Assembly (NCBI GenBank): GCA_005791465.1
Contig: SXWI01000124.1
Coordinates: 1-42,129 of the forward strand
Length of the DNA stretch: 42,129 bases
Source of the DNA: Bacteroidota bacterium
Lineage (GTDB): Bacteria; Bacteroidota; Bacteroidia; Chitinophagales; Chitinophagaceae
Reading direction: 5' to 3'
The notes beneath the pieces were generated by a model. The model did no database searches. It was not told the DNA's origin and saw only the letters and a program-made list of their open reading frames with translations. Both the position numbers and the translations under genes were made by a program. Every line of letters begins with the position of its first letter. Positions within the stretch are counted from its first letter, which is position 1. Shown one piece after another: positions 10,712-13,795 of the stretch.

Positions 10712-11296
10712 TTAGTCTGTAAGTCGGTGTCCGGCGTTTACCCAATCTGTAATTTTTTGTTTATCCAAGCTGGTCAGTTGACCGTTTTGAGGCATGAAGG
10801 TAGGCAGCCCATTTACACAACGTAAGCGGATCCTATCCCAACTTGCAACTATACTGGAGTCTGAATCAAGATTTTTTCCTCCGCTCGAGCCCCCGTTTAA
10901 ATGGCAGGGGCCACAATAGCCCAGCATTAACTGACGAACCGCAGCATACTTGGGGCCATAAGCCGAGATCAAAACGTGCAGCGTATCTGAACAGCCTTTT
11001 TGATTGATCACTTTTACGATATTGTTGCCAGCTGTAAGCCCCGTCAGATAAGGACTTTGTTGTGGCGTGCCATTATTGACCGCGTATTTTAGAGTATCTC
11101 CCCGAGGAGTCAACACTGTTATACTGCCATTGTTAACGCCTCCTATTGCTGCGGTCTTTACAATTTGAATATCGTAGGAGGTTCCTGCACAAGGATCAGG
11201 GCCCTTATCTTTATTACATCCCAAGATAATAGCCCCCATAATTAGCAGGGCAGTTGTTAGGTAGCTTGACTTGAGAAAAGTGAATTGAGATAGCAT
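10712..11296 (-). CDS. Lipoprotein with SprB-repeat-like domain and C-terminal c-type heme motif
   Basis: 194 aa; lipobox-like MGAIILGCNKD; GGVNNGSITV...GTPQQSPYLTGLTAGNNIVKVINQKGCSDTL; CGPCH heme site and downstream FMPQNG. Confidence 0.75.
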   Translation of the reverse strand: MLSQFTFLKSSYLTTALLIMGAIILGCNKDKGPDPCAGTSYDIQIVKTAAIGGVNNGSITVLTPRGDTLKYAVNNGTPQQSPYLTGLTAGNNIVKVINQKGCSDTLHVLISAYGPKYAAVRQLMLGYCGPCHLNGGSSGGKNLDSDSSIVASWDRIRLRCVNGLPTFMPQNGQLTSLDKQKITDWVNAGHRLTD

Positions 11297-11320
11297 ATTC
11301 GAATATAAAATATTTTTTTT

Positions 11321-11359
11321 TGTAACATTGTTGCATTTTATATTTGCAACATTGTTACA
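11321..11359. promoter_or_regulatory. Paired palindromic operator overlapping the TonB receptor promoter
   Basis: TGTAACATTGTTGCA (11321-11335), ttttatatt spacer, TGCAACATTGTTACA (11345-11359). The two arms are inverted copies with one central mismatch, and each is itself an imperfect palindrome. Confidence 0.7.
11339..11346 (+). promoter_or_regulatory. TAnnTTTG (-7) promoter element of the TonB receptor
   Basis: TATATTTG, with TTTG at 11319-11322 as a possible -33 element (16 nt spacing). It sits in the centre of the palindromic operator pair. Confidence 0.55.
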
Positions 11360-11371
11360 AAATTTAAAGCC

Positions 11372-13795
11372 ATGCGTAGAAAAACTATTATTTTATTTTT
11401 TGTTTTCTTTTCCGCTCTAACAATTAGTTTGAAATCTTTTGGCCAGGGTCAAAATGGTCTACAGCTAAAGGGAACGGTTATTCATGCAACCACTAAGGAG
11501 CCATTGGCGGGTGCTACGTTGACTATATCTGATCTTCGTAGAAGTATACAAACCAACGAAAAAGGATTCTATTCAATCAGTGGAATTGGTGCAGGTCATC
11601 ATGTAATTGAAGTGACCTATACGGGATACGCAACCCAGGTAATTCACATTGAAATGCTTCAGTCGCAGGATAAAAATTTTTTATTACTTCCCGTTTTTCT
11701 AGAGAATCAAGGTGTTGTTGTTACAGGAACAGCAGCGCCCACCAGTTTGAGGAAAACGCCTGTGCCTGTAACTATTTTTCGCCAGGCAGATTTAATGCGA
11801 ACCGCTTCCTCAAATATTGTTGATGCATTAAGTCAATTGCCGGGTATTTCTCAGGCTACCACAGGGCCTGCTATTTCTAAGCCACTGATTCGGGGTTTGG
11901 GGAGTAATCGGGTAGTAGTGGTGAACGACGGGATAAGGCAAGAGGGCCAGCAATGGGGTGATGAACATGGATTGGAAATCGATGAACTTAGTATCCAAAA
12001 AGTTGAAGTGGTAAAAGGACCCGCTTCACTTTTATATGGTAGCGATGCCCTAGCCGGAGTAATCCATTTTCAGTCGGCTCCTCCGGTTGAGGAAGGCTCC
12101 ATCAAAGGTCGATTTTTATCGAACTACCAAACTAATGGTGGATTGATCTCTTCTCATGTTAGGTTGGCAGGGAATAATAATGGATTTAATTGGAGTGGTT
12201 ATGGCAGTTCAAAATCATCAGGAGACTATAAAAATAAAATGGACGGGCGAGTGCTCAATTCAAGATTTCAAGAGAATAACTGGGGTGGACAGGTTGGCAT
12301 CAATAAAAAATGGGGTTATTCGCAATTAGTTTTTTCAAATTTTGATCAGCGACTGGGAGTGGTTGAAGGGGAGCGTGATGCTAGTGCTGGTCAGTTTATT
12401 GTAAATGGCGGCACTCCGCTGGAGAGAATTGCAACAGAACAAGATTTGAAGGGCCGTGAAGTTTTAGTACCTAACCAATGGGTGGAGCATGCAAAATTAG
12501 TATCCGATAATGCTGTGCAGGTTGGTCAAAGTAGACTCAAATTAACGATAGGAGCACAGCAAAATAAAAGACGGGAGTATGGAGAGGCAGAAGCGCCTGA
12601 GGAAGAAGAATTATTCTTTGACTTAAAAACATTGAACTACAATTTTCAATGGCAACTTCCCGAGCGAAAGGAGTGGCATACAACGATAGGGGTAAATGGA
12701 ATGCGTCAGGCCAATAAAAATAAAGGAGAGGAAGTTTTGATACCAGCATATCAATTATTTGATGCAGGGGTCTTTTTGTACACCCAGCGTTTTATGAACT
12801 CAGTAACCTGGAGTGGTGGGTTACGACTCGATAGCAGATCCATACGTGGAGAGTCCTATGAAGAAGGAGGTCAGCTGAAGTTTTCTGAATTTAAAAAACG
12901 ATTTTCAAATTGGTCCGGAAGCTTTGGATTTAGTTACGAACCCTCCAATGATGTGGTTTTAAAAGTTAATCTTGCTAGAGGATTCAGAGCTCCGTCCTTG
13001 CCGGAATTAGCAAGCAATGGAACTCATGAAGGAACTAATCGTTATGAATATGGAACATTAGATCTTCAATCTGAAACAAGTTGGCAAGGGGATGCGGGTT
13101 TGGATTTGGAGTACGAACATTTTGGTCTTTCTGCCAGTGTTTTTTATAATCATATCAATGATTTTATTTTTTATAGAAAAATGAGTGCTGTTGCTGGAGG
13201 TGATTCATTGGTGCAAGTAGGAGGGGAAGAATTAACTGCATTTGTTTTTCAGCAGCAGAACGCAAGCTTGGCAGGATTAGAGTTTACGTTGGATATTCAT
13301 CCACACCCAGTACATTGGTTGCATATTGAAAATACTTTCTCCTTGGTGCGTGGCCGTTTTGCACAGCCAATTGATAATAATACACCGGGGAGTGAAAATT
13401 TACCCCTTATACCTGCCCCTCGGTGGAATTCAGAAATCAGGGGTGATTTTGAAAAGGGATTTGGTCCATTCCGGCAAGCCTATTTCCGGTTTGCTGCGCA
13501 GCAGGTTTTTACGCAAGATCGATTTTTCAGTGGCTACGATACAGAAACTGAAACGCCAAGCTATCTTTTGATGGACTTTGGGGTAGGAGCCAATTGGGTT
13601 GATCGTAAAAAAAATACAATGGCATCAATTCATTTGATCATCACAAATCTGGGTGATGTCGCTTGGCAATCTCACACAAGTCGGTTAAAGTACACCGCTG
13701 AAAATCCTGTAAATGGGCAGATGGGAGTATTTAACAGAGGACGTAATATTTCATTGCGTTTATTGGTGCCCTTTATGTGGAAGAAAAAAAACTAA
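11372..13795 (+). CDS. TonB-dependent receptor with carboxypeptidase-like regulatory domain (possible metal receptor)
   Basis: 807 aa; signal peptide, LKGTVIHATTKEPLAGATLTI CarboxypepD_reg-like domain, plug PLIRGLGSNRVVVVNDGIRQEGQQWGDEHG, VEVVKGPASLLYGSDALAGVI, and a C-terminal beta-barrel. Confidence 0.93.
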   Translation: MRRKTIILFFVFFSALTISLKSFGQGQNGLQLKGTVIHATTKEPLAGATLTISDLRRSIQTNEKGFYSISGIGAGHHVIEVTYTGYATQVIHIEMLQSQDKNFLLLPVFLENQGVVVTGTAAPTSLRKTPVPVTIFRQADLMRTASSNIVDALSQLPGISQATTGPAISKPLIRGLGSNRVVVVNDGIRQEGQQWGDEHGLEIDELSIQKVEVVKGPASLLYGSDALAGVIHFQSAPPVEEGSIKGRFLSNYQTNGGLISSHVRLAGNNNGFNWSGYGSSKSSGDYKNKMDGRVLNSRFQENNWGGQVGINKKWGYSQLVFSNFDQRLGVVEGERDASAGQFIVNGGTPLERIATEQDLKGREVLVPNQWVEHAKLVSDNAVQVGQSRLKLTIGAQQNKRREYGEAEAPEEEELFFDLKTLNYNFQWQLPERKEWHTTIGVNGMRQANKNKGEEVLIPAYQLFDAGVFLYTQRFMNSVTWSGGLRLDSRSIRGESYEEGGQLKFSEFKKRFSNWSGSFGFSYEPSNDVVLKVNLARGFRAPSLPELASNGTHEGTNRYEYGTLDLQSETSWQGDAGLDLEYEHFGLSASVFYNHINDFIFYRKMSAVAGGDSLVQVGGEELTAFVFQQQNASLAGLEFTLDIHPHPVHWLHIENTFSLVRGRFAQPIDNNTPGSENLPLIPAPRWNSEIRGDFEKGFGPFRQAYFRFAAQQVFTQDRFFSGYDTETETPSYLLMDFGVGANWVDRKKNTMASIHLIITNLGDVAWQSHTSRLKYTAENPVNGQMGVFNRGRNISLRLLVPFMWKKKN

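Follow-up and report, generated by a model that had tools for sequence, protein, structure and literature searches.

Known tandem operators and the receptor promoter

In Proteobacteria, TonB-dependent receptors are among the genes regulated by Zur, e.g. ZnuD of Neisseria and receptors of Caulobacter. Tandem operators of the Fur family are likewise of a known kind, as znuA of S. coelicolor and yciC of B. subtilis each carry two Zur boxes over the -35 and -10 elements (PMC6103462). The window analysed here (the whole stretch of 42,129 nucleotides) contains a pair of palindromes directly upstream of a TonB-dependent receptor gene, and the features of this region are as follows.

10712-11296, - strand: lipoprotein-like protein with one CxxCH motif, neighbour of the boxes
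11319-11322, + strand: TTTG, possible -33 element as read from the sequence
11321-11335, no strand: box 1, TGTAACATTGTTGCA, predicted 7-1-7 palindrome of the Fur/Zur type, covering the -33 region
11339-11346, + strand: -7 element, TATATTTG, which fits TAnnTTTG and runs from the spacer into box 2
11345-11359, no strand: box 2, TGCAACATTGTTACA, which repeats box 1 in inverted orientation and overlaps the probable transcription start as well as the last bases of the -7 element
11372-13795, + strand: TonB-dependent receptor of 807 aa with a CarboxypepD_reg-like domain, plug and beta-barrel, the putative regulated gene

Both boxes are 15 bp long and show the 7-1-7 form of a Fur-family operator, TGNAAC-N3-GTTNCA; this is the invariant part of the box motif, while its third position and centre are variable. 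The spacer ttttatatt (11336-11344) separates the boxes, giving a centre-to-centre distance of 24 bp. In box 1 the outer half-site is weak (TGTAAC) and the inner half-site is strong (GTTGCA). The -7 promoter consensus of Bacteroidota is TAnnTTTG. The final two bases of the -7 element are the first two bases of box 2, and TTTG overlaps box 1 by two bases, so that both core promoter elements are overlapped in the manner of a Fur-family operator, at a gene with an inferred role in metal uptake. The gap from TTTG to the -7 element is 16 bp, a slightly short spacer, and the receptor ATG at 11372 lies 12 bp downstream of box 2. A generic sigma-70 promoter scan was uninformative.

The two inverted palindromes, the -7 element, TTTG and the distance to the start codon had all been reported in a preliminary description of this DNA and are found where it placed them. 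Two of its supporting arguments are not borne out: the appeal to a "single-operator logic" is off because the operator has two boxes, and the acidic loop of the receptor (EAPEEEE), taken there as a hint of metal, is not conserved in receptor orthologues.

As in znuA and yciC, two 7-1-7 Fur-family palindromes lie over both core promoter elements of a putative metal-uptake gene (PMC6103462). The locus differs in its letters (TGCAAC/GTTGCA), its Bacteroidota-type promoter and its target, a TonB-dependent receptor. It resembles the Zur-regulated receptors of Proteobacteria in that derepression of an outer-membrane receptor gene by a zinc sensor is predicted. Unlike Neisseria ZnuD, the receptor here has a CarboxypepD_reg-like domain preceding the plug, and it scored 102.8 bits against the NCBIfam ZnuD model, for which the cut-off is 950.

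Conservation upstream of receptor orthologues

Conservation was examined in a genus sample of 42 genomes and a set of 53 receptor orthologues. The box was found within one mismatch and 700 bp upstream in 34 of the 53, and the same count on shuffled upstream regions had a mean of 0.5 and a maximum of 5; the other 19 had none within these limits. TAnnTTTG abuts a box in 22 of the 34 orthologues having a site. Box pairs at exactly 24-bp spacing occur in nine other orthologues of the genus (L185-L193), two of which (L185 and L186, with protein identities of 88 and 83%) share the box pair of the window. All ten sequences with this spacing have GTTGCA and TGCAAC as inner half-sites, flanked on the outside by TGTAAC/TGAAAC and GTTACA/GTTTCA. 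Further pairs have spacings of 25 bp (L204), 26 bp (L012, a member of another genus) and 29 bp (L197).

In many other orthologues there is just one box, some 450-600 bp ahead of the receptor. There, the box usually precedes a small His/Cys-rich ORF, often ending in RGPP, or a MerC protein (L030), which sits between the box and the receptor. The small protein, of about 90-125 aa, was seen in L013, L018, L029, L195, L200, L211 and others; it had no match in curated Pfam and is missing in the organism of the window. The most distant named receptor homologues (Prevotella and Flavobacterium) are mostly without a box, and the box is thus not universal. One genome without a close orthologue (G156) encodes a distant receptor, 28% identical, with a near-perfect box, TGCAATATTGTTGCA, 53 bp upstream (L213), which suggests that the box may move between receptors.

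The preliminary description had extended control, as a possibility, to the divergent lipoprotein. In genomes where the lipoprotein gene lies at a distance of 145-190 bp, has the opposite orientation or is lacking, the boxes still accompany the receptor, and for this reason the lipoprotein is probably outside the regulated unit. Its CxxCH motif reads GYCGPCH, and a family search with the protein gave no match. Across the genus, the CxxCH lipoprotein is kept near DUF1800, DUF1501 and receptor genes in varying orientation.

The same box at Fur-family genes

A Fur-family match was found in 40 of the 42 genus genomes, 38 of them above the Pfam cut-off. At 28 of 30 inspected Fur loci of the genus, the box (T/A)GCAACNNNGTTGC(A/T) lies between the divergent merC and sco-fur genes; Pfam confirmed FUR, SCO1-SenC and MerC in the nearest relative (G159). 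A box at the regulator's own gene, the layout of autoregulation, is therefore seen in relatives but not in the assembly of the window.

A scan of 150 family genomes with TGCAACNNNGTTGCA gave sites in 86, while a reversed-pattern control was nearly empty. A Fur-family gene lies no more than 1.5 kb from 22 of the 30 exact family sites inspected, with the order merC - box - sco - fur in 19. One further site lies by merC and sco alone and four precede a TonB-dependent receptor, so that 27 of the 30 adjoin a merC/sco-fur locus or precede a receptor; the remaining three have no Fur gene, merC-sco or receptor nearby. Boxes close to fur and receptor genes were found in Dyadobacter tibetensis (L090), Algoriphagus oliviformis (L095), a Bacteroidales MAG (L107) and Chitinophaga solisilvae (L055). 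The preliminary description had named recurrence of the motif before transport genes, a link to a Fur-family gene and conservation upstream of orthologous receptors as checks of its reading; run in relatives, all three favour a putative operator of a dimeric Fur-family (Zur-like) repressor over the receptor core promoter.

A weight matrix was trained exclusively on 28 Fur-locus sites in genomes of the genus other than that of the window. With this matrix, the two boxes were the top-scoring matches of the window, at 22.7 and 22.3 bits and thus above the training-site minimum of 21.9 bits, and the next-best match scored 10.2 bits. The maxima in 20 shuffled windows were 6.8-20.8 bits. In the whole assembly (1.48 Mb in 169 contigs, 86% complete), the only exact matches to TGYAACAWTGTTRCA are boxes 1 and 2. 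The two boxes are not a product of chance. A single one-mismatch site (C138:5060) was rejected as a further operator because it lies within a coding gene. Taken with the anatomy of the promoter, the pair is very probably a tandem, Zur-type, metal-dependent operator, as predicted from these comparisons.

Regulator and metal signal

The Fur-family proteins of the relatives (n = 82) were aligned with E. coli Zur, whose zinc-site ligands are assigned in PMC4219657. The equivalents of the site-B ligands are kept in 80 (His77), 76 (the diagnostic Cys88) and 81 (His96) of the 82 proteins; within the Zur subfamily, no other site-B residue is as conserved as Cys88 (PMC4219657). The fourth, Glu111, falls in an alignment gap, so that three of the four ligands of site B are seen to be retained. 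The site-A cysteines, comprising both structural CxxC pairs, are kept in 81-82 of the 82. Compared with E. coli Zur (PDB 4mtd), the regulator aligns and keeps these residues, but identity is low, an additional His/Cys-rich stretch is present and the DNA motif differs. Its best NCBIfam match is Zur, under the cut-off, and its PDB matches rank PerR first, Fur second and Zur third. Zinc is therefore the most likely, though not a proven, signal.

The strongest competing explanation keeps the same anatomy but has the repressor sense iron, copper or manganese and the receptor import that metal or its chelate. The box is shared with MerC and with SCO1/SenC, a copper chaperone family, and neither SCO nor MerC is a specific pointer to zinc. 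In addition, the best weak NCBIfam matches of the receptor are haem receptors, far under the cut-off, and PerR leads the PDB matches of the regulator. Set against this, the site-B equivalents His77, Cys88 and His96 occur in 76-81 of the 82 regulators and the best, though sub-threshold, NCBIfam match is Zur, and we consider another metal unlikely, while giving it real weight.

The regulator in the organism of the window

Neither the Pfam model nor a protein search detected a Fur-family gene in the 86% complete assembly of the window, and nothing matched merC above the cut-off. The 8.1-kb fur contig of the nearest relative (G159) had no DNA match in this assembly, although a DNA search should have seen it because the receptor regions of the two genomes are 84% identical over 5.4 kb. 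The best match to the UvrD-type helicase of that contig was 30%. Since the whole 8-kb fur neighbourhood is also absent, a gap in the assembly is the likelier explanation, ahead of a specific loss of the regulator.

The operator could alternatively be a relic with decaying boxes in a reduced-genome lineage that has lost its regulator, as the 1.48-Mb genome without a Fur match might imply. However, the scores of both boxes fall among those of functional sites, the closest small-genome relatives (G159, G184 and G153) retain the regulator, and it is the entire fur neighbourhood that is missing from the assembly; a relic is improbable. More doubtful still is that the boxes bind a regulator of the TetR, MarR or LysR type and resemble the Fur-locus boxes by coincidence. 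Palindromes are used by many regulators and the Fur regulator is absent from the assembly, but the motif learned from Fur loci picks out precisely these two boxes and recurs beside Fur genes across the family and the genus, which makes such a coincidence very hard to credit. An RNA hairpin (terminator or attenuator) or riboswitch in place of an operator was rejected as very improbable: the fold is stable (-20.2 kcal/mol, z -4.4), but the promoter sits in the loop and the stem would consequently not be transcribed from it, a U-run follows the pair on neither strand, pairing across the arms is broken at the centre and, in 6 of 10 sequences, at column 3/37, whereas the half-sites are fixed, many orthologues have a single box alone, and an Rfam search of the element gave no match.

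Proposed mechanism

For the tandem Zur-type operator, we infer that a repressor binds and blocks the promoter, that zinc is its signal, that the receptor carries the metal or its complex, and that this organism has kept the regulator. If the metal, most likely zinc, is in good supply, a repressor dimer would sit on each box, covering the -33 region at box 1 and the -7 element and start site at box 2. With both dimers bound, the promoter would be unusable by RNA polymerase, resulting in tight metal-dependent repression of the receptor. Upon metal scarcity the dimers would be released and the receptor made, and more of the metal, or of a complex of it, would be taken up through the outer membrane. 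The receptor is probably made only when the metal is scarce because the putative repressor boxes sit over its promoter. As a speculation, having the strong half-sites inside and the weak ones outside may promote contact between the dimers. In the relatives, the same repressor would control its own sco-fur operon and the divergent merC through one symmetric box.

On a wider scale, we tentatively propose, with somewhat more doubt than conviction, a Zur-like regulon across much of Bacteroidota with its own box, TGCAAC-N3-GTTGCA, that connects the regulator and a TonB-dependent receptor with a membrane protein of the MerC type, an SCO-type protein and a small protein rich in His and Cys. One genus would then have evolved a double operator of fixed spacing, whose half-sites suggest cooperative, graded repression. 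In the literature searched, which did not cover regulon databases such as RegPrecise, we found nothing relevant on a TGCAAC-type box or a Zur regulon in Bacteroidota, nor this motif together with a merC/sco/fur/receptor regulon.

The proposed operator would tie an orphan TonB-dependent receptor to a metal sensor. The box provides a searchable motif for a metal regulon of Bacteroidota, such regulons being little described in that literature, and the receptor, MerC, SCO and the small His/Cys-rich protein become candidates for uptake of zinc or another metal. The conserved 24-bp double box offers a clean test system for why some promoters have two Fur-family boxes.

Other proteins near the Fur loci

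In other Bacteroidota, clusters of fur and receptor genes (L095, L101 and L107) include His-rich lipoproteins (FHEHxDI, HNFDHH), and an FtsX-type ABC permease adjoins a protein with a CFFCG motif in L152 and L095. The lipoproteins, permease and CFFCG protein are possibly further parts of metal uptake. In a few genomes (L214 of G180, L121 of G032 and L122 of G128), a second, more canonical Fur-family protein accompanies the Zur-like one, with much higher Pfam scores of 90-97 bits.
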